In this document: piece by piece, positions 2,139 through 35,414 of the stretch
How the letters are laid out: each line of letters opens with the position of its first letter
How positions within the stretch are numbered: the first letter of the stretch is position 1
Source: a virus
Reading direction: 5' to 3' (one strand)
Virus record (IMG/VR): IMGVR_UViG_3300002835_000485
Location: 1-37,832 of that record
DNA length: 37,832 nt
Notes under the pieces: model-generated
What the model was told of the DNA's origin: nothing
The model's input: the letters and a program-made list of their open reading frames with translations, nothing else
Databases searched by the model: none
Position numbers and translations under genes: made by a program

Positions 2139-5100
2139 TTAGAAACCGGTGTTGTTAGTTCCCAGTCCTTGAGCGTTCAGCTCGTTCTGCATTTGACCAA
2201 CGGCAACGCGGATCAGATCGATCTGAATTCTTTCCAGAGTCGGGACAGGAGTCACAAACACCTTGGCGTTAATGATTCCGTTCTCGAGTGAGGCAGGAGG
2301 GTTGATTCGAGCATCACAGATAACTTGGAAAGCGTCGCTTGGGCGAGCGCCGAACAGAGCACCACGAGAGTACAGCTGGTTCAGAACGCTATTGCCAACC
2401 GAAATGATCTGGTTGAACGCCACACCGAATCCGTCGATAACGTTGAAGATCTGGCTATCGAAGGCATTTCTCAGCGAACCGTAAACAACGTTCAGAATGA
2501 CGCGAGTGTTTACGAACTGGTACAGACGCTGTTGAGCGTCAGCAGTGTTAACGCGAGTTCTTCCGCCCCAGACAAACACCGCGCTGGTTGGGTAACCAGG
2601 CAGGGTACGGATTGCGTTGCAACCGTCAGGGTTGAGAAGGTTTTGCTGAGCCGAGTTGATCGGAATCTGAGCTGCCACTGCGTCGGCAAGTTGATACTTG
2701 ACACCAGCAGGCGGGAACTGATATCCCTCAGCGCGGTAACGACGCAGAGCAATTCCGGTCACGTAAGGTGAAGGAGGAATCCACTGACCCGAAGCGTTCT
2801 CGATGTAAGGACCGTAGTAAGCAATGAAACCGAAAGGTTGGAAGTACCTTTGGCTATCGTTGTACAGACGGTTGACATTGTCAACGCCAGCCTCAATGAA
2901 CTCAGCCTGGGGAACACCGTTGAACCCAACGCCACGGATCGCATCGCTGATGATTTCGGTGGAGGTGATTGGGTCAAAGCGCCAGAGAGCACTCGGAGGA
3001 GTTGCCTCAGGGGTGAAGTTCAGACCAACTTGTGAGCCGTAGCAAGGTTGACCAGCAACACTCAAGTCGCCACCATCAGGGATAACCACCCAGTCGTAAG
3101 CGGTTCCGTTGTAAGTCACGGCGATCCGATCATTAACTGCAACCTCAGTTACTCCGTCAGGGCCAACGGCGCCAGCAGGAGCCACAGTAACGTTGAAGTA
3201 AACCCCGACGAGTTTAGCAACAGCATCTTGAATGTCAACCCCAGTGTCTGACACGGCGAGGCCGGTCGAAGTAACGTAGGGAGTCGCAGTGTCCAGGACA
3301 CCTAACGTGGCAGAGGTAGCGGCCTCGTAGTCACCGCCTGCAATCGGATCGATTGAAGGAACCAGGAATGCTTGTGAAGCAAAGTTCTGGTCAACGGTTG
3401 GGGTGCAGTACCAGTTCTCAAGAGTTGTGGAAGGAGAGCCGGGGGCCGAAAGAGTAAGCTCAGGCAGCCAACCTGCAGTAGAATTCTCACCGAAAGGTGA
3501 AATCAAACCAACACCAAGAGCGGTCAAGCTGTTGTTGAAGAAGATCGAGACTTCAGGGTTGCTCGCGGAAGGAGCAGGAGCTGCAGCCGAATCAGCTGCT
3601 TCTGAAGCGATCAGGCCGCTATTCAGACCGTACTTCCGAGCACGAACAAACGGAATAACCGACAGCTCAGCCAGAGTGGCCGAAGTTGCCTCACCGCCAA
3701 GAACCTTCGTGTAGAAGATTGTGGGGCTAGAGACAAAAGAGGTTGTACCGCTCGGAATCGTTACGAAAGAAGAAGCCGTGTAAGAGGTTAAGCTCTCAGC
3801 CAGGCAGAAGGTGTCTGCGTCGATCACCTGAACGTAGTAAAGCGCCTCAGAAACTTTAGTCGTTGCGCGGAAAAGGTTTACTCCGGCGTTGGTCTTCACC
3901 GATTGAGTGAAGTACAGTTTCTGACCGCTCGTCAAGCCGTGAGCGACACAAGTAACCCGAGCCGTGCCAGTGTAAGCTCCTGTGGAACCAGCCACGGAAG
4001 TGTCGGGGTCCAGGATTGTACGGGATACGAAGTTCAGACGGTAGTTAGCGGTAGCATCCTGAAGGCTAGCAGGAAGGTGCAGTGTGTTGACATACTGAGC
4101 GGCCCCAGTAATGTTCTGCAGAAGGTTTGAAGTCTGACCGTTAATTGTCTGAGGCAGGCTGTAGAAAGGAACAACGTATGTGAAGTCGCAGGTTCCAGTG
4201 GCTCCGCCAAAGTTGATCGCATTGGCAGGGGTTGTCAGGTTAATTGAACCACCAGCAGCAATGACTTCATCCAGAACGGACACAGCGTTAGGCGCGTCGT
4301 AGGCGAAGAACACGTTATTAAACGAGTAATCACCGGTTGCCTCCAGATCATACGGAGGAGCAATAACGAAGATCGTTCCGTCTTCCCCGATCGTGCTCAG
4401 AATGTCACCAGTGGCGTTACTGAAGGTAACTTCCTGAATCTGGTAAGACACAGGCCAGTAATTTGCCACGTTGAGGACGAGCATTGTGTCGTCGACGGTT
4501 GAATCAACCTCGAATGTGGCTGAATCCAGCAGGCCAACTTTCTCACCAGCGGCGACAGGAGTTGCACTCCGAGACTGAGAGATAGCGGTTTCTGCCGTGG
4601 GAGAAGCAATCAGAGCTTGGTAGGTGAGCTTATCGTAGGATACGTCAGCACCAACCCACTCGTACATGGCATTGTCTACCAGGTACTTATTTCCGGTGAC
4701 CAGGTCAGCAGCAGGCTCGTGAGGTGTGAATGCGCTGTACTTGTTGATGTCGGTCACAAGGAAAGGACCGGGATCGGCAAGAGCCAGCCACTTGTAGTTG
4801 TTGTTGGCGCAATGATCGGCAGCAGCAGCTCCGACAGCAGAACGGCCATCAGCATCAAACTGAGCGTACGCAGTTGGAGTAATCAAGTAGCCTTGATCTT
4901 GCTGACCGTCGAAAGCGGTCTCGATGCACTGAATGTAATCCTGGGGAACTCGCTCCAGGTTCTGCTGTTGGCCAACGATGTTCTGAATGTCATAAACATT
5001 CTGCATCATGACGTACTGAGCACCGACTGGCAGAACCAGCGGAACAACGCTCACGTTAGCGTCAAACGTAGCGGCAGCAATGCTTACGAAAGCATTCTCA

Positions 5101-5771
5101 GAGTTTGAGAGAGGGTCGATCGAAGTTACAAGACCGAAATCACGAACGTAGACGGAGCTACGAACACTCGGGTTGCTCTCAATCGCCTCTGCGATCGCAA
5201 TTGCGATAGCGGAAGAAATTCTGCGGTTGTTAACTTCGTCGCCAGGGATGTAGTCTACGGGAATTGTAACTGGAACACCCAGCCACTCTCCGTCGTTGGT
5301 GTAACCTGTGGATCCATCGCCTGCTACGAGGCGATTTCCGTTGATTACAAGTTGTGCGTAAACAACGTCTCCAGCCTCGAAGTTCGAGGGAAGACCTGCG
5401 TTGCTCTGCTTGGTTCCGTTAGGAAGAATCTCAATCTCTACGATCTGATCAGGAGTGCCAACGCGAACAACGCGTAGATCACCAATCTGAGCATTCTGGA
5501 AAAACTCGTTAACGCAGTTGTAGCTCAGCAAGGGAATCCGGGCCTCAGGAACGCTTCCACCAACGAGGGCGAAATAGTCGTTCAGCGAAGTGATCGGAGT
5601 AGGTGTGTTATAAGGGAAAACTGTAACCGGCACTGTTTCTTCGGTTTCCACCAGCATGTAAACAGTGCTAAAATTAGCAACGTCAGCGTTTGCGACAACA
5701 CCGGCACGCTCATTGATGTATACACCAGGAGCTCCGGGGGTTGTTCCACCGCCAAGAGAAAATGTGGCCAT
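2139..5771 (-). CDS. Contractile tail sheath protein, unusually large (1210 aa)
   Basis: The N terminus from ATG 5771, MATFSLGGGTTPGAPGVYIN, is the typical sheath opening. The C terminus carries the conserved sheath core: LRRYRAEGYQFPPAGVKYQL, a VWGGRT segment, NTRVILNVVYGSLRNAF, and the final strand-helix hand (VTPVPTLERIQIDLIRV). Upstream in-frame TTG at 5816 is less likely. T4 gp18 is 659 residues, so this protein is nearly twice as long. The extra length is Thr/Ser/Ala/Val-rich beta-type sequence in the middle (about residues 200-950), which probably forms domains on the outside of the tail. A GGGTAAAA element lies about 100 bp upstream of the start. Confidence 0.93.
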   Translation of the reverse strand: MATFSLGGGTTPGAPGVYINERAGVVANADVANFSTVYMLVETEETVPVTVFPYNTPTPITSLNDYFALVGGSVPEARIPLLSYNCVNEFFQNAQIGDLRVVRVGTPDQIVEIEILPNGTKQSNAGLPSNFEAGDVVYAQLVINGNRLVAGDGSTGYTNDGEWLGVPVTIPVDYIPGDEVNNRRISSAIAIAIAEAIESNPSVRSSVYVRDFGLVTSIDPLSNSENAFVSIAAATFDANVSVVPLVLPVGAQYVMMQNVYDIQNIVGQQQNLERVPQDYIQCIETAFDGQQDQGYLITPTAYAQFDADGRSAVGAAAADHCANNNYKWLALADPGPFLVTDINKYSAFTPHEPAADLVTGNKYLVDNAMYEWVGADVSYDKLTYQALIASPTAETAISQSRSATPVAAGEKVGLLDSATFEVDSTVDDTMLVLNVANYWPVSYQIQEVTFSNATGDILSTIGEDGTIFVIAPPYDLEATGDYSFNNVFFAYDAPNAVSVLDEVIAAGGSINLTTPANAINFGGATGTCDFTYVVPFYSLPQTINGQTSNLLQNITGAAQYVNTLHLPASLQDATANYRLNFVSRTILDPDTSVAGSTGAYTGTARVTCVAHGLTSGQKLYFTQSVKTNAGVNLFRATTKVSEALYYVQVIDADTFCLAESLTSYTASSFVTIPSGTTSFVSSPTIFYTKVLGGEATSATLAELSVIPFVRARKYGLNSGLIASEAADSAAAPAPSASNPEVSIFFNNSLTALGVGLISPFGENSTAGWLPELTLSAPGSPSTTLENWYCTPTVDQNFASQAFLVPSIDPIAGGDYEAATSATLGVLDTATPYVTSTGLAVSDTGVDIQDAVAKLVGVYFNVTVAPAGAVGPDGVTEVAVNDRIAVTYNGTAYDWVVIPDGGDLSVAGQPCYGSQVGLNFTPEATPPSALWRFDPITSTEIISDAIRGVGFNGVPQAEFIEAGVDNVNRLYNDSQRYFQPFGFIAYYGPYIENASGQWIPPSPYVTGIALRRYRAEGYQFPPAGVKYQLADAVAAQIPINSAQQNLLNPDGCNAIRTLPGYPTSAVFVWGGRTRVNTADAQQRLYQFVNTRVILNVVYGSLRNAFDSQIFNVIDGFGVAFNQIISVGNSVLNQLYSRGALFGARPSDAFQVICDARINPPASLENGIINAKVFVTPVPTLERIQIDLIRVAVGQMQNELNAQGLGTNNTGF

Positions 5772-5873
5772 GTTTTTAAGAGGGTGTTCCTTCTTTCCCT
5801 TCAGCAGTGCAGGCAAGGATGACTCCTACGTGGTCTCCGTAGAGCTACTGTTGGGACACAAATGTGTACTAAC

Positions 5874-17262: not shown

Positions 17263-17742
17263 TTACGTGAAGAGATATTCTTTCCACTCGGGGACAATAC
17301 TGCTGTTCAACGTTAGGAGAAAACGACTGAACGGCGCGTGGGGTCTTCTGTTCAAAGGAACTCCCCACTCTTCTGGCGTTCTGTTGTCCTTTACGTTGTT
17401 GCAGGTGTAGCAGCACGCTACCATGTTTTCCCAAGTGTCTCCACCTCCTCGCGACTGCGGCAAAACGTGGTCAATCGTAAGGTCACGATCAGAACCGCAA
17501 TACTGACAAGTGAAACCGTCACGCTTCAGAATGAGGCTACGAGAAGGTTTCTTTGCGTTGATGCGCCGAATCGGAAGCCGCACGTATGTAAGCAAGCGAA
17601 TGACTTGCTCGGAAAGAATCTGTGCTTTTTTCTTCAGCACGAGCACAATGGCACGTCGCCAGGAGCAGACGTTGAGAGGCTCATAGCTGGCGTTAAGTAC
17701 GAGAATACTTCTGTCGATGGCTAGAGTAGTAGGCGATGACAT
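17263..17742 (-). CDS. HNH endonuclease, cyanobacterial type
   Basis: 159 residues. The N-terminal half (RSILVLNASYEPLNVCSWRR) is typical of an HNH protein widespread in cyanobacteria and actinobacteria. The HNH core covers about residues 78-118: CQYC zinc pair, LTIDHVLPQSRGG with the catalytic histidine, WENMVACCYTCNNVK with the second cysteine pair. It could be a free-standing homing nuclease or act in DNA packaging or repair. The similarity to a host-type gene suggests uptake from a cyanobacterium. Confidence 0.87.
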   Translation of the reverse strand: MSSPTTLAIDRSILVLNASYEPLNVCSWRRAIVLVLKKKAQILSEQVIRLLTYVRLPIRRINAKKPSRSLILKRDGFTCQYCGSDRDLTIDHVLPQSRGGGDTWENMVACCYTCNNVKDNRTPEEWGVPLNRRPHAPFSRFLLTLNSSIVPEWKEYLFT

Positions 17743-18806: not shown

Positions 18807-19286
18807 TCACTCGTTAACCAGCACAGCGTGCTTGTATTTATTGCGCAGGTTCAGTATGCGTGTTGCCATACCTTTTTGCCACGATTCACTTTGTGCTTCT
18901 CCTCTGCCAGCGTGACGTTTTGCCAACTCTTTCTCACTCACAGTGACAGCAATCAACTCCATGTCGCCGTATTCAAACATCGCGTCCAGGTTGGGGTTGT
19001 TACTCAAGCGTTCACCTTCTCCTAGTATAGTCCAGTCCTGGTGAGACTGCGACATTGAGGCCAACCACTCTCTGAATTTTGGACCCACACCTTTGCTCCA
19101 CCGGTCCGTGCCGCTGAAGACTTGTTCATCATATATGCCTAGCACGATTGTCTTCGATGTTTCAAATTTGTGGTAAACCACCAAACCTTCTTTCACCAAG
19201 GTTGACTCACCTAGAGTTTTCATGCGCTCACGCATCAAGGTGCTTTTTCCAACACCAGGGCGTCCAATGTAATACTGAATTTTCAT
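18807..19286 (-). CDS. P-loop kinase, resembles 5-hydroxymethyluracil DNA kinase
   Basis: 159 residues from ATG 19286, which overlaps the upstream stop as ATGA. The Walker A motif is GRPGVGKST (residues 8-16). The segment VFSGTDRWSKGV (56-67), the GEGERLSN turn (89-96) and the C-terminal RGEAQSESWQKGMATRI are, as I recall, shared with phage kinases that phosphorylate 5-hydroxymethyluracil in DNA (HMUDK) and leave an activated base for later substitution. The context agrees: a TET/JBP-like dioxygenase and a probable amino acid:DNA transferase lie upstream. It could instead be a general nucleotide or polynucleotide kinase, so the substrate is inferred. Confidence 0.65.
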   Translation of the reverse strand: MKIQYYIGRPGVGKSTLMRERMKTLGESTLVKEGLVVYHKFETSKTIVLGIYDEQVFSGTDRWSKGVGPKFREWLASMSQSHQDWTILGEGERLSNNPNLDAMFEYGDMELIAVTVSEKELAKRHAGRGEAQSESWQKGMATRILNLRNKYKHAVLVNE

Positions 19287-19663
19287 GAACATTCTCCTTG
19301 TTTGAGATAAAGAATTACGCGCTCTAGAGCTGAAACTGTGTCGCCAAGTAGTCCGATACCCTTATTACAACTGTTGCAGATCCACCCCCTATGCTTCAAA
19401 GAATCATGACAATGATCAAAAAGCAATTGCTGGTCAGTGCGCTCACAAATTTGACAGGGAGTCCCCAACACGGGATTAGGAACAGCAACAATTCGCTTGC
19501 GGGCTTCACGCCGTTCCTTTGATACCCGGTTGGCGCACTTCTTGCACTCTGGTCTCCAGTACTGTTTAGTGCCGTCACCGTTAGTTTGGTTGCGGTGAAA
19601 AAACTCAACCGTCAACGGCAGTTTTTGAAAACATTTGGAGCACTTTCGGGTCTCGACAGTCAC
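19283..19663 (-). CDS. Recombination endonuclease VII-like protein
   Basis: 126 residues. An N-terminal CSKC zinc pair with the CxxC partner CKKC (residues about 8-43) is followed by the endonuclease VII core: CQICERTDQQLLFDHCHD (H-x-H region), RGWICNSCNKGIGLLGD. T4 endonuclease VII resolves branched DNA before packaging. Related free-standing genes are frequent in phages and some are homing enzymes. It is the first gene after the promoter at 19687-19715 and is co-translated with the kinase. Confidence 0.82.
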   Translation of the reverse strand: MTVETRKCSKCFQKLPLTVEFFHRNQTNGDGTKQYWRPECKKCANRVSKERREARKRIVAVPNPVLGTPCQICERTDQQLLFDHCHDSLKHRGWICNSCNKGIGLLGDTVSALERVILYLKQGECS

Positions 19664-19686
19664 AAAACGACTACGACTACATTGAT

Positions 19687-19715
19687 AGTATAGTTCGCTT
19701 CAGACCTCATGTAAA
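19687..19715 (-). promoter_or_regulatory. Promoter of the endonuclease VII/kinase operon
   Basis: Minus strand -35 TTTACA (19710-19715), 17-base spacer, -10 TATACT (19687-19692), 24 bases before ATG 19663. It lies just after the stop of the transferase-like gene and has no cassette hairpins except a short GGTAACC inverted repeat. Confidence 0.6.
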
Positions 19716-19722
19716 GGTCGGG

Positions 19723-20778
19723 TTACCGAACAGGGTAGTGAAAAGTGCCGTGATCGTGAAACAGAAACATTTTCTGTTTGGTTACTATAGCCCCTCGCGG
19801 AGCCAGTAAATCTCCAATTACCTCTTTTCGTGCCTGGTGCAAGACCTCCCAATCAATCCCTTGCCAACCATCTCTCTCTGCCTGGGAAATTTCTTCTGAT
19901 TGTCGATCAAGGTAGTACCCCATGTACCGACCTTTCTTGACCCGGAACAGCTTTTTATAGGAGCATAAGCTGGTTTCTAGTGAGAAATTGTCCATCTGGT
20001 TTGCCAAGTGAGGGTACAGTTCCTTGCTATTTTGAAGCACACCAGCTCCAAATCCCTCCAACCAATCGTACTCAGCTGCGGTAAGTTTTTGGTTCACCCA
20101 GTCATCCTTACCAGCTGCGAAACACAAACCGTTTCGATGACTTTTACTCCCTGAGTAGTCAGCGAGGAAGAGTGTGGGGCACTCCAAAGGTATGTTACAA
20201 GTGTGCTTTAGAGTTTGCAGATAAAAGAACGTCGTATACCTTCCAAACTTGTACCAACTTCCTTTGACAATGTCCCAGAGTTTGGAGAAATTCTCTTGGG
20301 GGGATCCTGAACAAATGGCGTTAAACTTGCTATACTGACTGCGACCTCGAAGCCAATCTTGGTAGGAATCGTACATGGCAGGCAGGTGCCCCTTACTCCA
20401 CTTCGTGTCGACTTGGTATCGAAGACGAGGGTAGTTTTCGTTGTTCCACTCTGTAAATCTCTCGACAGAGGCCAACTCTTCATCGGGGAACTCTTGCTTA
20501 TACACCCACGCTGTGGGTAAGTTGTATGTGTGATACAGCCAAGCGAACCACAATTTCTCTTCGACGTTGTGCTCGTACCGCTGGTTAAGATAGTTCATCA
20601 ACCATAACGCAGGGTCGCAGTCTCCATTGGCAACCGACCAAGCGTACCACCGAATGAAACCTTCCCGCCTGTTCCCTAACTCACGGTAATCATGACCAAC
20701 GTTCTCTTCATCTGCACGGGTAACATCAACCGCAGCGCCTCTGCTCACGTTATTCTCGAGGCCCATAGTTCTGCTCAT
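19723..20778 (-). CDS. Probable amino acid:DNA transferase-like protein
   Basis: 351 residues from ATG 20778; starts at ATG 20766 or GTG 20748 are also possible. The recognisable domain starts near REGFIRWYAW and reads SVANGDCDPALWLMNYLNQR, LWFAWLYHTYNLPTAW, KQEFPDEELASVERFTEWN, then FQ/YQVDTKWSKG and FGRYTTFFYLQ. From memory this order fits the ADDT/alpha-glutamyl-putrescinyl thymine pyrophosphorylase clade, helical proteins of DNA-glycosylase type that replace an activated hydroxymethyluracil group with an amino acid. All usable starts overlap the plus-strand phosphatase gene by 57-87 bases. The recognisable domain itself starts about 40 bases beyond that gene. Family call moderate; catalytic residues not identified. 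Confidence 0.6.
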   Translation of the reverse strand: MSRTMGLENNVSRGAAVDVTRADEENVGHDYRELGNRREGFIRWYAWSVANGDCDPALWLMNYLNQRYEHNVEEKLWFAWLYHTYNLPTAWVYKQEFPDEELASVERFTEWNNENYPRLRYQVDTKWSKGHLPAMYDSYQDWLRGRSQYSKFNAICSGSPQENFSKLWDIVKGSWYKFGRYTTFFYLQTLKHTCNIPLECPTLFLADYSGSKSHRNGLCFAAGKDDWVNQKLTAAEYDWLEGFGAGVLQNSKELYPHLANQMDNFSLETSLCSYKKLFRVKKGRYMGYYLDRQSEEISQAERDGWQGIDWEVLHQARKEVIGDLLAPRGAIVTKQKMFLFHDHGTFHYPVR

Positions 20779-21099
20779 AAAGTTCAATCATGTGGTACAG
20801 GTAAGGTGGCTCCTTTGCATCGTAAGATCCCGAGAAAAATGCGAGAAGTTTTGGAGAATCTTGGATATTGTCCGCACAACCATCGTTCCCAAGGCATATC
20901 GGCAGATTTGCTGGATTGGGCGGACGTCATCGTCTGCATGGGCAATGTTCACGAAAAGTATGTCACTGTGCACTACCCGCAGCATTGTCACAAAGTGACA
21001 AATTGGCTTGTAGATGACCCTCATTTTGCTGTTGGCACAGAAAAGCATTACTCCGTTGCCAACCAGATCCAAGAGTTTGTTCTCAGCCGATTTTGTTGA
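20692..21099 (+). CDS. Low-molecular-weight protein tyrosine phosphatase-like; only plus-strand gene
   Basis: 135 residues. The N terminus is the LMW-PTP P-loop: VLFICTGNINRSAS, with nucleophile C8 and R14 in CX5RS. Then VQSCGTGK, HRSQGI, a WADVIVCMGNVHEKY helix-strand, and LVDDPHF (D108/D109) as the general-acid loop. All expected landmarks are in order, so the gene looks intact, slightly shorter than the usual 150. It overlaps the transferase gene head to head and the amidoligase gene tail to tail (17 bases), and no good SD precedes it. The substrate could be phosphotyrosine, another phosphomonoester, or arsenate. Its position inside the modification island is notable, but a role there is only inference. 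Confidence 0.85.
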   Translation: MTNVLFICTGNINRSASAHVILEAHSSAHKVQSCGTGKVAPLHRKIPRKMREVLENLGYCPHNHRSQGISADLLDWADVIVCMGNVHEKYVTVHYPQHCHKVTNWLVDDPHFAVGTEKHYSVANQIQEFVLSRFC

Positions 21100-22021
21100 T
21101 CCACTCTTCAACTTGCTTTGCAGAGCATTGCTCCAGGTTCAAGTCTTTTCTCATGTTGTTCAACCGTTCTGTAACAACTTTGCGCGAGTTTTTGTCGAAA
21201 TTGGTGTACTGATAACCAACCTCCATGCTGTGGTTGTAAGGCAAAAATGCCGGAAATTGGTAATTGTATGCATTCACTATCTCACTAGGGGGCGGGTTAT
21301 CCCAGACTCGAGTCATAAACTCAAACACCCAAACAAAACAAGAAGTGACTTCAAAAAAGTCAAGGGTGTTGGTAAAGTGACGGAATTCCACCGTGTCTGT
21401 TTCCTTCAACTGCAGCAAATTGATACCTGCCCGTGTCGTCAGACCCCAGGCAGGTTCGCCATGCTTGTCTTGGGGAGCGTGTGCAGCCAGGAACTCCTCT
21501 ACCGATCCCGCGTTCAAAGCTCGCTCAACCCTGTCTCGGGGTACAGCATACTGGTGTGAAACTTTGCGGCGGCGGTAACGTTTCATCGCACCTTGGTACT
21601 CCTCTTTTGTTTCAAACTGTTCAAGGCAGGGGACCGGAATCGGCTCAATTGCTTCATAAATTGCGTTCTGATTTTCATCAACATACCGCAGCAAAGTTTT
21701 TAACGCTTTCAGGTCTTCGGACAACCCTGGAACACGAACATGCAAATGCAGGTTAGTACGGTAATTCAGCTGTGGACCTATGCCTGCAGCCATCAAAGCG
21801 TCAAAGAAGTCGACTTGCTCTGCAATTGTTTCCGTCGGTCGTGAGTTAATTTCACCCCCCTTTGTGTACAGCAACCCTTTGGGGTCGTTTGCGATGCCCG
21901 TCGAACTCACGATCGAGTAATCTTTCTTGTTCCAACTTAGACCATCGGGCAGCTTTGCTTTGCGGTTGATGTCACCGTACTCGTATTCTGCACCGAACGT
22001 AATTTTCTTGGGATCAATCAC
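21083..22021 (-). CDS. Amidoligase (COOH-NH2 ligase) family protein
   Basis: 312 residues. The landmarks of the amidoligase family (ATP-dependent, glutamine synthetase-like fold) are in order: FGAEYEYGD with E12/E14, KGGEINSRP with E57, NLHLHVRV with H92/H94, a basic stretch RYRRRKVSHQY, and TVEFRHFTNT near residue 215. Such enzymes join a carboxylate to an amine, using ATP. The ATG overlaps the stop of the glutamine amidotransferase gene (ATGA), so the two are co-translated and the amidotransferase probably supplies ammonia. The substrate could be an amino acid or a modified DNA base; not shown by sequence. Confidence 0.8.
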   Translation of the reverse strand: MIDPKKITFGAEYEYGDINRKAKLPDGLSWNKKDYSIVSSTGIANDPKGLLYTKGGEINSRPTETIAEQVDFFDALMAAGIGPQLNYRTNLHLHVRVPGLSEDLKALKTLLRYVDENQNAIYEAIEPIPVPCLEQFETKEEYQGAMKRYRRRKVSHQYAVPRDRVERALNAGSVEEFLAAHAPQDKHGEPAWGLTTRAGINLLQLKETDTVEFRHFTNTLDFFEVTSCFVWVFEFMTRVWDNPPPSEIVNAYNYQFPAFLPYNHSMEVGYQYTNFDKNSRKVVTERLNNMRKDLNLEQCSAKQVEEWINKIG

Positions 22022-22680
22022 GGCACAAGCTCCTTAACCTCAGTAATTTTATGCAAAGAGTGGGGCCGATAAACGATGCCTGGCGTACACCGCTCTGCCT
22101 CCTTCAGACCGGCCCTAAGGGCGATGTCGGCGGTGCTGCAAACAAACCACCCATTGGGCACCTTAGCGTGGTAGAGGGGCCTCTTACCGTTGCGATACCA
22201 GGCCATACCACCCAGAAGCCTAAGCTCACATACTGCCATGCTTGCTTCCGGGAACTCTTCCAAGGGTTCCTTACCGGAGTGGGCACAGTGATAAAGCAAT
22301 TCACTATCGTTAGAGGTAGAAAGCTGATAACCGTACTCGCCCCAGTAGGAGGGTGGGCGCTGGTCAATCACCCCGTTGTGCGCAATCGCAAAGTCAGCGT
22401 GAATTTGAATCGGTTGGTTGTACCGCAGATCGGAAGTGCTGTACCGGGTGTGACCAATCAAGCGCAGCTCATAATCTCCGGGCTGAATGTCATCGAAGTA
22501 GTTTTCGACAAACAGTTCGGCTGATAAAGGAGCGTTGCGAGTTACTAACTCACCTTGAACAAATGTAGAATACCCTGTTGCATGTTTGCCTCTGACTCGA
22601 GACTCCACGAAAAGCTTTTTCAGAGTGTCGATTTGTTGTTGTGTAGGGCCTTCCAAGTAGGCCCCCATGATACCGCACAT
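22018..22680 (-). CDS. Class II glutamine amidotransferase
   Basis: 220 residues. The enzyme begins MCGIMGAYLEG, so C2 becomes the N-terminal nucleophile after Met removal. Further GATase II landmarks are RGKHATGYS, GHTRYSTSD (about 77-85), AHNGVI (about 103-108) and TSNDSELLYH. It releases ammonia from glutamine. There is no synthetase domain, so the partner must be a separate protein; the amidoligase it is co-translated with is the obvious candidate. It follows the TET/JBP-like gene with a TAATG overlap. Length matches the isolated glutaminase domain. Confidence 0.9.
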   Translation of the reverse strand: MCGIMGAYLEGPTQQQIDTLKKLFVESRVRGKHATGYSTFVQGELVTRNAPLSAELFVENYFDDIQPGDYELRLIGHTRYSTSDLRYNQPIQIHADFAIAHNGVIDQRPPSYWGEYGYQLSTSNDSELLYHCAHSGKEPLEEFPEASMAVCELRLLGGMAWYRNGKRPLYHAKVPNGWFVCSTADIALRAGLKEAERCTPGIVYRPHSLHKITEVKELVP

Positions 22681-24104
22681 TAGTTTTCGGTGTACCAGTA
22701 GTTTGTTCGAGAAGCCTGTGGGCAGTGCTTGGCTCGGTACTCATCCCACTCGTTACTCACCCACATGGAAGGAAAAACACCGCTAAACTTGCCACCATCG
22801 TTTTTACGGTAGCGGTCTTCATATTGCTCTTGAGAGTAAGCAATAAACTCTTTACGGCAACACTCAGCTTGATAATCGTCGAGCTTAGCCATGCCATCGC
22901 GGGCGTAGAACACCAGTACAACGCTTTCAGCAGTTCCGGTTTTGTCCACGAACTCGGTCTGTCCGTGCACTCGGTTGCAATTGTCACCTACAAAGAAATC
23001 GCCATGTCGGAGGTTGAAAGCCAGGCGAAACTCTCCCATCACAAAATACTGACCGTCATACTTTTCGCCATCGTGTTTTTCGTTGGTGATGCTTGTTAGA
23101 ACAGCAACACCACGCGGGTTGTTCTTACCGTCCAGGTGCCAGAAGGTAGAAAAGTTATGGTTGATTGTGATAGTCGAGAAAGTTTTAGTTCCTAGGAGAG
23201 TATAACGATCATCCTTGCAATCTTTCATCACATTGTGAATGTAATCCCACTCCTCAGGCATTGTCTCCTTGTACAAGTCAGACGCTTGCTGGTACAACGC
23301 TTGATGAGCAACAAAATCGTCATAACGTTTCTGTGTGGTAGCAGACAAGCGCCCGAAAGGGTTGCGAGCAGAGCGGTCCATGAACCCCAGGATGTTGCTG
23401 TAAACTTTGTTCGCCCTCGTTTGAATGCTCACGAAGTTTTTATAGGAAGTGGCTGCATAAGCGACCTGATCCCCAGCGATTGCCCACGACTCCAACCAAT
23501 TGTCAAACCACTCTTGACGCAGCTGATCACGTTCTGCCAAGACTGCTTCTTTCTCGGTCAGAGGTGTTTTCTTCTTGCGGGCGATGGACTCCAGCTCCAG
23601 GATTCGGTCTTTGTTCACCAACCCTGAATCCAGAATCTTTTTAACATATAGCGAGAACCGTGCAAAGCCGGTGTGCTTGGAGACAAGGTCTTGAGCCTCC
23701 TGCAGCGTCGTGATCTTCCCTTTGGCTGCTTCTCGGAAGAAAGCCACTTGGCCATTCGTCAGGCGGGCAGAGGTGTCTGTAGTGAGCTCTTTACCACCCA
23801 CCAGGCCCCGTTGGTCAGAGTAGAGATCTTTACTGACCCATTTCCAGAAATTATAGCTTTCCGAGTTTGCTTCGATTTTAGTGACTTCGGAAAGAGCACC
23901 TTTCAAGAAGACAATCGCCCTCTTACCGTTCAGGTACACAATTGTGTTCCCGTCGATCACTCGATCGTAATCTTCTTCGGTGGGGCGGTCTCCGAGGCGA
24001 TCTTTCTCGAAGGGGAACATTTCATCAAATTCAATAACCTCGCACTCGTACTTTCCAGTGCAAGTTTCAAGGATTTCTGTCCTGGACGTGGTGGCCGTGG
24101 TCAT
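22680..24104 (-). CDS. TET/JBP-like 2-oxoglutarate Fe(II) dioxygenase
   Basis: 474 residues. The catalytic core lies at about 300-405: FSTITINHNFSTFWHLDGKN carries the HxD pair (H323, D325), then a GVAVLTSI strand, GEFRLAFNLRHGDFFVGD, NRVHGQTE with distal H380, and ESVVLVFYAR. This order (TINxNF, HxD, GDxxxGDxxxxxHG) matches the JBP/TET branch that hydroxylates thymine or 5-methylcytosine within DNA. The 2-oxoglutarate arginine usually sits about 15 residues after the distal His; here the nearest candidate is R402, 22 later, which is unusual. Residues 1-300 are mostly helical and unrecognised and may bind DNA. It heads the operon with the amidotransferase and amidoligase. Confidence 0.78.
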   Translation of the reverse strand: MTTATTSRTEILETCTGKYECEVIEFDEMFPFEKDRLGDRPTEEDYDRVIDGNTIVYLNGKRAIVFLKGALSEVTKIEANSESYNFWKWVSKDLYSDQRGLVGGKELTTDTSARLTNGQVAFFREAAKGKITTLQEAQDLVSKHTGFARFSLYVKKILDSGLVNKDRILELESIARKKKTPLTEKEAVLAERDQLRQEWFDNWLESWAIAGDQVAYAATSYKNFVSIQTRANKVYSNILGFMDRSARNPFGRLSATTQKRYDDFVAHQALYQQASDLYKETMPEEWDYIHNVMKDCKDDRYTLLGTKTFSTITINHNFSTFWHLDGKNNPRGVAVLTSITNEKHDGEKYDGQYFVMGEFRLAFNLRHGDFFVGDNCNRVHGQTEFVDKTGTAESVVLVFYARDGMAKLDDYQAECCRKEFIAYSQEQYEDRYRKNDGGKFSGVFPSMWVSNEWDEYRAKHCPQASRTNYWYTEN

Positions 24105-24168: not shown

Positions 24169-24771
24169 CTACTGGTGGTATTCATACTTGGTGTCGAACG
24201 CAGCTCGAATTATGGACTGAAGCCTCCGGGCCACGTCCAAGTCCTTACCGCAGTAGATTGTGGTCTTGAGCAGGTCGCTGTACACCTCAGGCTCTTCTTT
24301 TGTGATGGCCACATCGTAGAAATTGATGCGATAGGCCACACCCAGGTCTGCACACTGGGTGTTGATTCGGTTTGCTTCAGCGATGAAGTTGGGGCCATGA
24401 CCTTTAACTCCGTCGTCACGGTTCTTCATGTCGAGATAGGCGTGAAGCATCTCGTGAAGCAAGGTGCTGCGAACTTGCAGGGGATCTTTCGCAGCGTGGC
24501 GGGCGAGTTTGATTTCCCCAGTTCCTCCGTTATTTGGCTTGTAAGTCCCCCATTTAGTTCTGTAACGACCTTCCCACTTGAGACGCGGATACGAGTTCCA
24601 GGTCTCTCCGTTTTCGTCGGTGCGAGAGACAACCTTGGGGACCGGGAGTTCTCCGTTGAAATACTTCGCATTGAACTCGGCGTACAACTCGCCAAGGTCA
24701 TAAATCGCGCAAGGGTTGGGGCAGAACCGTTCAAGAAACGAGTTTGAAACTACCGTTTTGAATTCCGTCAT
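24169..24771 (-). CDS. SprT-like zinc metalloprotease
   Basis: 200 residues from ATG 24771, overlapping the stop of the gene before it (TGATG); the longer in-frame start is rejected. The SprT-like core begins LYAEFNAKYFNGELP and has HEMLHAYL (H106, E107, H110) with the third zinc ligand H125 in GHGPNF, the exact arrangement of SprT/Spartan proteases. Spartan-type enzymes cut proteins crosslinked to DNA. The C-terminal part lacks an obvious zinc ribbon of the long forms. It lies directly upstream of the dioxygenase gene, separated by 64 bases, so it may serve the modification island or general DNA repair. Confidence 0.83.
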   Translation of the reverse strand: MTEFKTVVSNSFLERFCPNPCAIYDLGELYAEFNAKYFNGELPVPKVVSRTDENGETWNSYPRLKWEGRYRTKWGTYKPNNGGTGEIKLARHAAKDPLQVRSTLLHEMLHAYLDMKNRDDGVKGHGPNFIAEANRINTQCADLGVAYRINFYDVAITKEEPEVYSDLLKTTIYCGKDLDVARRLQSIIRAAFDTKYEYHQ

Positions 24772-30373: not shown

Positions 30374-30652
30374 TCAAAAAACATCGTTAGGTTGGAAGAC
30401 AGCATTCTCTCTTTGTGCCCATTCAATCAGTCTGTCGCCCAAATCAAGAGCCATCTCAGGGGTGAGAAGAATCTCCTCGAAGTCGCCCCATTGTGAGCGC
30501 CGACCGAGCAGATAACCGACTGCGTTACGAAGGCGATTCCAGAGAGGTAGCGGTGAGAGGTGAATTTCAAGGAAGGCATCATTTTCATCCGCCGAAACTA
30601 CGAAACTATGCTCAATGCTTCCGCAGGGGCAAATGAATAGAGTGCGCTTCAT
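30374..30652 (-). CDS. Hypothetical protein, 92 aa
   Basis: Starts MKRTLFICPCGSIEHSFVVS; a CPC pair near the start and a histidine suggest a possible metal site. A strand-rich N terminus, then helices (LLTPEMALDLGDRLIEWAQR). ATGA overlap with the HAD phosphatase gene upstream. From memory similar small proteins occur in T4-like cyanophages, without known function. Confidence 0.64.
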   Translation of the reverse strand: MKRTLFICPCGSIEHSFVVSADENDAFLEIHLSPLPLWNRLRNAVGYLLGRRSQWGDFEEILLTPEMALDLGDRLIEWAQRENAVFQPNDVF

Positions 30653-31041
30653 TGTTTCACGTGAATTACGGGAACATTATTCCTCTGGAGCATTTCGATA
30701 TTCCCTGCGTTATCGTCAGCCCACACAAGCGGATCGCCGTAGAAAGAACGAATCCTGTTTAGGTGATCTTCCTTGATTACGTGGTCCGGAACTCCCTCTT
30801 GGTCGTCTGGACGCATGAAGATTTGAATCGGAAGAAGTCCGTGCATCTTCAACCACTCGGTTGTTTGCGGACGCAGGCGCTCAGGGCGAGCGGTAGAGAT
30901 TAGCAGCGGACGTTCAGCCTGGAGTGCGATTGCCACAAGAAGCATCGCGGCATTCTCTCTCAGGGTTAGGAGGTTGTTCTCGTCGTAATGCTCCGAGGTA
31001 AGGGTGCCATCAATGTCAAAGACAACAGGTTGTTTTCTCAT
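30649..31041 (-). CDS. HAD-superfamily phosphatase, polynucleotide 3'-phosphatase-like
   Basis: 130 residues from ATG 31041; the longer in-frame start would overlap the upstream gene by far. HAD motif I is FDIDGTLTSEH (D9 and D11), motif II is LISTARPERLR, and motif III/IV is ADDNAGN at about 105-111 with K in between (HVIKEDHLNRI). The phrase TTEWLKMHGL ... MRPDDQ resembles the 3'-phosphatase domain of T4 polynucleotide kinase. The kinase domain is not fused; a separate P-loop kinase lies at 34956-35414. Likely heals DNA or RNA 3' ends, or acts on a nucleotide. Confidence 0.82.
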   Translation of the reverse strand: MRKQPVVFDIDGTLTSEHYDENNLLTLRENAAMLLVAIALQAERPLLISTARPERLRPQTTEWLKMHGLLPIQIFMRPDDQEGVPDHVIKEDHLNRIRSFYGDPLVWADDNAGNIEMLQRNNVPVIHVKQ

Positions 31042-31295
31042 ACCAATTTTGCTTGCAGTTTGTCCAGGGTCTGAAGAAGGTTGTTCATTCGGTTTGCCTC
31101 TTGCTGAGCCTCGTCCAGTTGCCCCCTCGTAACGTAGGTGGCGATTGTTTTCGAGCGTCCCGCCCGATAAGTTTCTGCGTAGGCGTCGGCGCATAGCGCC
31201 AGAATCGCCCACTGTTCGTTGGTCAGGGTTACCGAGCGACTAATTTCGTTCTCAGGCTCCCCTGCGAAAACAACTAGCTCTGTGTCAGTCAACAT
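31038..31295 (-). CDS. Hypothetical protein, 85 aa
   Basis: Starts MLTDTELVVFAGEPENEISR at ATG 31295. Pattern: acidic start, a helix NEQWAILALCADAYAETYRAG, then QLDEAQQEANRMNNLLQTLDK, a likely coiled coil. ATGA overlap with the HAD gene. No function known. Confidence 0.62.
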   Translation of the reverse strand: MLTDTELVVFAGEPENEISRSVTLTNEQWAILALCADAYAETYRAGRSKTIATYVTRGQLDEAQQEANRMNNLLQTLDKLQAKLV

Positions 31296-34267: not shown

Positions 34268-34956
34268 TGAGGGTCGGTTTCGATCTGAAAGAAGGTGTCT
34301 TGGGTGGCGTTGTAAGCAGTTAGCACTCCGGTTTTGTACGCAAGAGTGTCAATGCAAATACCGTTCGGAATTCGGTAGGGCAATGCGCCTTTCGGAGTGT
34401 GACCGAAGACAACTTTCTTGAGGTGCGGAGTCCACTTTTCAAATTGCGGCCCATCGTCCAGAAAGGGTCTCCGCATCCATAGAAATTGCTCTCGAAGGTA
34501 GTGCGTCCCCATCATCGTTTGGGGATCCTCACCAGGCGGGCAGCCTGCGTGTGTAAACAGTGTGTCACCGATTACAGTGTAGTACGGCAGCTCGCGAAGC
34601 CATTCGGCGTGTTTCCTTAGTTTTTCGAAATCTTCCCAGTTTCCACCATTCATAACCCAGTCTTCCCACCCGCAACCCGCGTCAGCGTTGAGAAACATTT
34701 GCTCGTGATTGCCACGAATCACGGTGAATGCCTCAAGACCGTTGCGAGTGGGATCCTCGAGAAGGCAGCGAGTGAGTTCCAGGACGACCAAGTCCTCCCC
34801 GCCACGATCAATCAAGTCGCCAAGAAGAATGACATGGGCTCCGCTGTCGCGAACCCAGTCAAGAAACATTAAGTAAGGTTCTGCAGTTGCGTGAATGTCA
34901 CCAACGGCGATCACGTCGCCGGGATTGATAACATCGCAGAAATTAAAAATATCCAT
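34264..34956 (-). CDS. Metallophosphatase, bis(5'-nucleosyl)/serine-threonine phosphatase type
   Basis: 230 residues from ATG 34956, which overlaps the kinase stop (TGATG). The calcineurin-like metal motifs are complete: VGDIHATAEP (D20/H22), LLGDLIDRGGED (D48, D52), IRGNHEQMF (N83, H84), a histidine in THAGCPPGED and VVFGHTPKGAL with the last ligand. This layout is that of lambda phosphatase and PrpE/ApaH-like enzymes. With the kinase and 5' nuclease it forms a nucleic-acid end-processing module. Substrate not determinable; residue numbers approximate. Confidence 0.88.
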   Translation of the reverse strand: MDIFNFCDVINPGDVIAVGDIHATAEPYLMFLDWVRDSGAHVILLGDLIDRGGEDLVVLELTRCLLEDPTRNGLEAFTVIRGNHEQMFLNADAGCGWEDWVMNGGNWEDFEKLRKHAEWLRELPYYTVIGDTLFTHAGCPPGEDPQTMMGTHYLREQFLWMRRPFLDDGPQFEKWTPHLKKVVFGHTPKGALPYRIPNGICIDTLAYKTGVLTAYNATQDTFFQIETDPQ

Positions 34957-35414
34957 CAAAAGATAAAGTTGATTCGATCAAAGGATTCGTTATAGATGTT
35001 CTTCAGAGAAGCGTTCAGCTTCTGGTGCATGGTGCGAATCACATGCTCGGGAACTTTGCGAGTCCGAGAAGCGTTGCGCTTCAGGCAGGTTTCAACAGTC
35101 GGGTTGACGACCACGGCTTCAATCTTGGTGTAACCGTAAGACTTCAGAAGAGCGATAGCCTCCTTCCGATAAGACGCTCGATAATGAGTACCGTCCAGAA
35201 TAACAGGCATACCGCAAGCTTCAGAAACCAGCTCCTCAATTCGGTCCTGGATTTCCACCCAGTTGCCCTGGATGTCAGCGGAACCGTAGAGTTCAGCGCG
35301 AATGTCGTCACCGGAGATAACAAAAGCATTCTCAGACTCTGCCAGTTCGGAAGCAAAGGTGGATTTGCCGGAGCCAGGAGCTCCGACCATCACGTAAGCA
35401 CGGAATTCGTTCAT
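34956..35414 (-). CDS. Polynucleotide kinase-like P-loop kinase
   Basis: 152 residues. Walker A is GAPGSGKST (11-19); the DD pair of SGDDIRAELYGS (35-46) matches the T4 PNK 5'-kinase active site; ILDGTHYRASYRKEAI and a basic lid RNASRTRKVPEHVIRTMHQK follow. The T4 enzyme joins this domain to a 3'-phosphatase; here the phosphatase-like HAD gene is separate at 30649. It is the first gene after cassette copy 8 and leads the operon with the metallophosphatase and exonuclease. Likely phosphorylates 5'-hydroxyl ends. Confidence 0.83.
   Translation of the reverse strand: MNEFRAYVMVGAPGSGKSTFASELAESENAFVISGDDIRAELYGSADIQGNWVEIQDRIEELVSEACGMPVILDGTHYRASYRKEAIALLKSYGYTKIEAVVVNPTVETCLKRNASRTRKVPEHVIRTMHQKLNASLKNIYNESFDRINFIF

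Follow-up and report, generated by a model that had tools for sequence, protein, structure and literature searches.

A phage operon combining a TET-family oxidase, an amidoligase and a phosphatase is predicted to hypermodify thymine in replicated DNA

The virus record IMGVR_UViG_3300002835_000485 of IMG/VR, a 37.8 kb virus fragment analysed here in its entirety (37,832 nucleotides; hereafter the window), carries between positions 18,807 and 24,104 an island of genes that we read as a phage operon for hypermodifying thymine after replication. We put the probability of this reading at about 0.68, where the reactions, the thymine substrate, the amino acid added and the phosphatase's role are all predicted from the genes. 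In the proposed pathway, an oxidase of the TET/JBP family would convert thymine in phage DNA to 5-hydroxymethyluracil by hydroxylating its methyl group, a kinase would place a phosphate on the hydroxyl of that base, and an amino acid:DNA transferase (ADDT) would exchange the phosphate for an amino acid. An amidoligase would then activate the carboxylate of the amino acid and couple it to ammonia supplied by a glutaminase, or to another amine. A phosphatase may work at or next to the amidation, for example by stripping a phosphate that is brought in by the amine or remains on an intermediate; this role is a guess. It is very likely that the island modifies bases of phage DNA, probable that ADDT adds an amino acid, and somewhat favoured that an amide is formed on DNA. 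The modification probably disguises the phage DNA from host enzymes.

Protein families were assigned by Pfam profile searches with curated cut-offs (Table 1). All six minus-strand open reading frames (ORFs) named in an original prediction made from the sequence are present, and the families proposed for them hold: the profiles are Tet_JBP, ADDT, Ploopntkinase3 and GATase_6, each matched above its Pfam cut-off, and the amidoligase is recognised through its relatives. The original prediction would have fallen had the kinase and the 351-residue protein belonged to unrelated families; their profiles are Ploopntkinase3 and ADDT. Its inventory overlooked the phosphatase gene on the plus strand and the loss of an arginine in the TET. 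Adjacent minus-strand genes share 1-4 bases (at 22680, 22018-22021 and 19283-19286). To collect loci of relatives, we scanned with amidoligase and kinase alignments and surveyed the ORFs with hidden Markov models built here; the resulting 148 loci give partly non-independent counts, several sharing one contig, and the frequencies of the amidoligase and kinase genes, through which the loci were gathered, are uninformative. The order TET-glutaminase-amidoligase-phosphatase-ADDT-kinase was found in at least 39 IMG/VR loci. In four further loci the order is the same and the phosphatase is flipped, as it is in the window, and two loci carry two TETs; shorter sets comprise TET-ADDT-kinase (16 loci) and TET-glutaminase-ADDT-kinase (11 loci). 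Because the identical order recurs in many other contigs, the grouping of these genes far exceeds chance.

The likely starting base is suggested by comparison with a sister operon, present in phage Simon and about a dozen IMG/VR contigs. It comprises ADDT, an FAD oxidoreductase, an amidoligase, a phosphatase, a clear match to HMUDK_hel (3.8e-42; 145 bits, cut-off 25), a match to HMUDK_HMUD1 just below its cut-off of 27 (2.5e-05; 24.3 bits) and a protein of the Thymidylat_synt family. Every copy of the latter that covers the site has the Asn that marks dUMP-type enzymes of the thymidylate-synthase (TS) family (PMC8670742). We scored TET, PF00303 (Thymidylat_synt) and PF00145 (C5-methyltransferase) over 50 whole contigs, and separately over 19 earlier records. 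Tet_JBP occurs on 37 of the 50 contigs, PF00303 on eight and both on none (Fisher p 2.4e-6, which overstates independence: the TS-type amidoligases form a single clade, and the exchange of the entry enzyme may therefore have been a single event in the amidoligase). A C5-methyltransferase is present on three of the 37 TET contigs. Since TET and PF00303 never co-occur and a C5-methyltransferase is missing from 34 of the 37 TET contigs, the TET probably stands in for dUMP hydroxymethylation and makes 5-hydroxymethyluracil from thymine in DNA.

Neither a dUMP hydroxymethylase nor a C5-methyltransferase was found in the window, as originally stated, or in two relatives (54.8 and 65.7 kb). PF00303 is likewise absent from the related contigs G001-G009, which are fragments, and PF00145 from the first 19 records, including the complete genomes of Kozie, S-CBWM1, C48C1 and DLP_6. 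Phage Kozie (complete, 53 kb) encodes TET, ADDT, an FAD oxidoreductase and the kinase, and has neither PF00303 nor PF00145. The original prediction of a pathway entered by oxidation of the polymerised base is thus supported, the TET replacing the TS-like enzyme of the sister operon. It had left the starting base as thymine or 5-methylcytosine (5mC); on these gene distributions thymine is the likely substrate and 5mC is disfavoured.

The window TET scores 54.7 bits for PF12851 (cut-off 34.9). Its AlphaFold2 model (pLDDT 85) has the double-stranded beta-helix fold, with CcTet, NgTET1, CMD1 and TET2 as the top Foldseek matches. The iron ligands H323, D325 and H380 (HxD...H) are invariant in 99 of 99 aligned sequences, and alignment to CcTet and TET2 places Tyr400, Arg402 and Asn328 in the base pocket. 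The gene is maintained, as its ratio of nonsynonymous to synonymous substitution rates (dN/dS) of 0.032 between the window and G002 indicates strong purifying selection; values of 0.03-0.06 for TET, kinase, amidoligase and ADDT show that all four are under purifying selection. A SprT-like gene is syntenic with the TET in G002, G004, G006, G007 and S-CBWM1, and by this comparison the protease travels with the TET in the window's clade only. Tandem TET pairs occur in three loci (L057, L058 and L059, on contigs G004, G006 and G007); G004 and G006 also carry two amidoligases, and the second TET of G006 is broken into two ORFs. In S-CBWM1 (L013, 3729-8000) a full-length TET relative is labelled as a SNF2 DNA repair protein, and after it come a phosphatase and a sugar-nucleotide gene, so that a glycosylated base may be made there. 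The same mislabelling of TET relatives is seen in Cr30, DLP_6 and HTVC112P.

The ADDT, a name already given by Pfam, scores 74.8 bits for PF18724 (cut-off 26.2) and matches 376 phage records, mainly of the Ackermannviridae type. The kinase scores 41.7 bits for PF18751 (cut-off 27). Its Walker A residues G8, G13, K14 and T16 are invariant in ten relatives, together with G50, Y52, D61, E90 and R124, and comparison of its profile with solved structures gave generic P-loop matches only. We predict that it is a kinase of 5-hydroxymethyluracil in DNA. The endonuclease VII gene between the two was counted in the original chain of six co-located genes and assigned no step. The co-location stands, and this one gene does not belong: the close relatives have no counterpart between kinase and ADDT (a 110-base gap in G002, a 4-base overlap in G003), and it is therefore probably a later insertion outside the pathway.

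The window amidoligase by itself has no Pfam match, and its sequence gave no useful match among solved structures. It is recognised as an amidoligase through its relatives, 18 of 22 of which match Amidoligase_2 (PF12224; best 6e-08) in the alignment, with E12, E14, H92, H94, R197, E212 and R214 invariant. Its model is of high confidence (pLDDT 94) and has weak fold matches with low TM-scores (E about 0.01); all 50 top listed ones are to glutamine synthetase, gamma-glutamylcysteine synthetase (gamma-GCS) or YbdK. The glutaminase is a probable ammonia donor: its profile matches the structures of PurF and GlmS, and Cys2, Arg79, Asn102-Gly103 and Asp125 are invariant in seven relatives. One 3.6 kb contig from an actinomycete metagenome-assembled genome (L217), probably a phage fragment, carries a glutaminase, an amidoligase, an acetyltransferase-like ORF and a ParB-like ORF consecutively. 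It is the sole such fragment from the scan of genome contigs and gives no clue to the host.

The phosphatase has the CX5R(S/T) loop and general acid of its family (C8, R14, S15 and D109-P110, invariant in seven relatives). In the window's clade it lies on the opposite strand, between amidoligase and ADDT, and its start shares about 90 bases, head to head, with that of the ADDT gene (20692-20787 in the window). Comparable overlaps are seen in G002, G003 and G004. The phosphatase adjoins the amidoligase in about 80 loci, all with the main amidoligase clade, and in 64 loci it starts less than 50 bases before the end of the amidoligase gene. Of the 86 loci counted with the main clade it is present in 80, and it is in none of the 62 others. 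As for the six exceptions, two contigs end just past the amidoligase, three are cut at its start, and the last (L145) bears the other amidoligase clade. This confinement to main-clade loci suggests that the phosphatase is tied to amidation and not to the kinase or ADDT, and by the same distribution we count it as a core member of the island. Its closest profile match is the arginine phosphatase YwlE. The window protein has Ile at what we take to be the Thr position of the YwlE pocket, and a reading as an arginine phosphatase was not adopted.

Table 1. Genes of the island and the adjoining protease gene, with the evidence for each family.
Feature	Position	Strand	Evidence
TET/JBP-family DNA base oxidase, 474 amino acids	22680..24104	-	Pfam Tet_JBP 9.3e-15
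Class II glutaminase domain (N-terminal Cys2)	22018..22680	-	GATase_6 3.1e-07
Amidoligase (carboxylate-amine ligase), GTG start	21083..22021	-	relatives match PF12224; conserved residues
Low-molecular-weight phosphatase	20692..21099	+	LMWPc, PF01451, 2.8e-15
ADDT (amino acid:DNA transferase), aGPT-Pplase2 type; start TTG 20787 or ATG 20778	19723..20787	-	PF18724 1.1e-20
Endonuclease VII-like nuclease	19283..19663	-	Endonuclease_7, PF02945, 4.5e-14
P-loop nucleotide kinase 3	18807..19286	-	Ploopntkinase3, PF18751, 1.2e-10
SprT-like metalloprotease beside TET	24169..24771	-	PF10263 1.6e-12

Besides the single clade of TS-type amidoligases, several observations weigh against a pathway that starts with a TET acting on thymine. 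The window and most contigs examined are fragments, and Caulobacter phage Cr30 has both a TET and a canonical-looking TS. Thymine and 5mC are not told apart by the aligned base pocket of the TET: the position through which NgTet1 touches N4 of 5mC is Asp in two thirds of related TETs, and Asn in both the window protein and TET2. The island could thus target cytosine, the TET oxidising 5mC made by a methyltransferase of the host or encoded off the fragment, and the other enzymes decorating 5-hydroxymethylcytosine. A phage TET that works in cytosine hypermodification was reportedly described by Burke et al. (2021), the TET model is closest to 5mC oxidases among solved structures, and the N4-contact Asp of most operon TETs and the three methyltransferase-bearing TET contigs point the same way. 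We nevertheless consider this unlikely, given the lack of PF00145 in the window, its two long relatives, four complete genomes and most TET contigs, and given a sister operon in which the same core accompanies a dUMP-type enzyme and 5-hydroxymethyldeoxyuridine (5-hmdU) kinase domains. A further point against the thymine pathway is Ser394 of the window TET, which stands where the 2-oxoglutarate-binding Arg (TET2 R1896, CcTet R385) is expected; CcTet R385A is inactive (PMC11040006). Ser occupies this site in the window, G001-G003 and L147, and Arg in the remaining 94 of the 99 TETs. A second common Arg, four residues ahead of the first iron-ligand His, is also Ser in the window (Ser319). The assignment to the TET/JBP family stands on the profile and the fold despite the lost Arg, and dependence on 2-oxoglutarate is presumed. 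With both Args replaced, the iron ligands kept and the gene under selection, the TETs of the window's clade might instead use another co-substrate and add a different group, or have a non-oxidising role. The algal TET CMD1, which is among the fold matches, is vitamin C-dependent, acts on 5mC and adds a glyceryl group (PMC7854593). It too is without a basic residue for the C5 carboxyl of 2-oxoglutarate; unlike in the window's clade, with its Ser, the aligned Arg is present in CMD1 and points away. Arg378, new beside the distal iron ligand, might substitute for the lost Arg, but L147 has the Ser without Arg378, and a relocated Arg is not a general explanation. The kinase and ADDT would still need a hydroxyl, as in relatives with an Arg-bearing TET. 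An altered co-substrate is a lead for this clade, and a departure from standard 2-oxoglutarate oxygenation is about as doubtful as the cytosine target.

In the proposed pathway the remaining genes also act on DNA. The amidoligase, glutaminase and phosphatase might instead modify the cell wall or some metabolite, for instance in superinfection exclusion, and merely adjoin TET, ADDT and kinase; such a role has been suggested for phage amidoligase-GATase pairs in PMC10580990, which cites Iyer 2009, and TET-ADDT-kinase loci without an amidoligase exist. This is improbable, since the amidoligase-glutaminase pair lies between TET and ADDT with overlapping genes in the many loci of conserved order, and since amidoligase and phosphatase are also embedded in the operon with 5-hmdU kinase domains. 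Instead of phosphorylating DNA bases, the 159-residue P-loop protein might serve in DNA packaging as a terminase small subunit, or be adenylate kinase-like: its best phage family, PHROG 800, is labelled terminase small subunit, and actinophage homologues are called one or the other. However, its gene comes after ADDT in nearly all operons, its Pfam family is Ploopntkinase3, and the window genes that were scanned yielded no terminase, so that we regard this assignment as highly improbable.

In phages ViI, M6, phi W-14 and SP10 a thymidylate-synthase-like enzyme supplies the starting hydroxymethyl-dUTP, and their 5-hmdU thymidine hypermodification is said to have been worked out by Lee et al. 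(2018, 2021). Systems of the ViI/M6 type share with the window the ADDT family and the logic of a kinase followed by amino acid transfer. The window differs in having TET for the TS-like enzyme and Ploopntkinase3 for a kinase of the HMUDK family, and in adding amidoligase, glutaminase and phosphatase. The Simon-type sister operon has a homologous ADDT, an amidoligase (40% identity) and an adjoining phosphatase; unlike the window, it has a TS-like entry, an HMUDK-type kinase and an FAD oxidoreductase, and no glutaminase was found in it. Roles of phage TETs in complex base modification were reportedly predicted by Iyer et al. (2013). The original prediction presented oxidation of the polymerised base as a new starting principle; here it was preceded by Rhodococcus phage Tonitrus (2025), in which a Tet-like protein, aGPT-Pplase2 and a 5-hydroxymethyluracil DNA kinase form a predicted thymine hypermodification system (PMC11955845). 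Tonitrus and Microbacterium phage Kozie resemble the window in TET, ADDT (aGPT-Pplase2) and an adjoining kinase of the same family, and differ in that no amidoligase, glutaminase or phosphatase is apparent in the gene regions viewed; Tonitrus additionally has a ParB-like gene, and Kozie its FAD oxidoreductase. An assayed precedent for an amide on a modified phage base is CmoY, which builds one on carboxymethylcytosine in the DNA of Synechococcus phage S-B43 (PMC12783734). Unlike the proposed pathway, the CmoX/CmoY system uses an asparagine-synthetase-like ligase and carboxymethylcytosine from a methyltransferase homologue, with no TET or ADDT. In a partial coverage of the literature we found no report linking amidoligase and phosphatase to ADDT, or amidoligase to hydroxymethyluracil. 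A TET-containing set predicted to hypermodify thymine is already published, and the version with amidoligase, phosphatase and glutaminase appears undescribed.

Other genes of the window encode a Mu-type portal, a tail sheath, a family A polymerase and a topoisomerase. The tail sheath protein (2139-5816) has 1225 amino acids, and its sheath match is confined to the C-terminal 220-250 residues. An HNH endonuclease (17263-17742; PHROG 16726, 6.8e-51) has a homologue in Synechococcus phage S-CBWM1 (L013). Separate genes at 30649-31212 and 34956-35414 match the HAD domain of polynucleotide kinase-phosphatase and a polynucleotide kinase-like ATPase, and a 5'-3' exonuclease and a metallophosphoesterase lie close to them.

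In its fullest form, the proposal would describe a widespread class of phages that build amidated amino-acid thymines on finished DNA, with interchangeable entry by TET or dUMP hydroxymethylation, a phosphatase coupled to amidation, and in the window's clade a TET that uses a co-substrate other than 2-oxoglutarate to make an unprecedented base; that all of this holds at once is a long shot. If true, the operon would offer a compact way to install a carboxamide or substituted amide on thymine in intact DNA, with the nucleotide pool left unengineered, and TET and dUMP hydroxymethylase would be exchangeable entry steps. Phage TETs would gain thymine as a substrate, as kinetoplastid JBP enzymes have, and amidoligase and phosphatase would join the enzymes known to tailor DNA bases. 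The Arg-less TET of the window would offer a direct test case for a change of co-substrate in the TET family.

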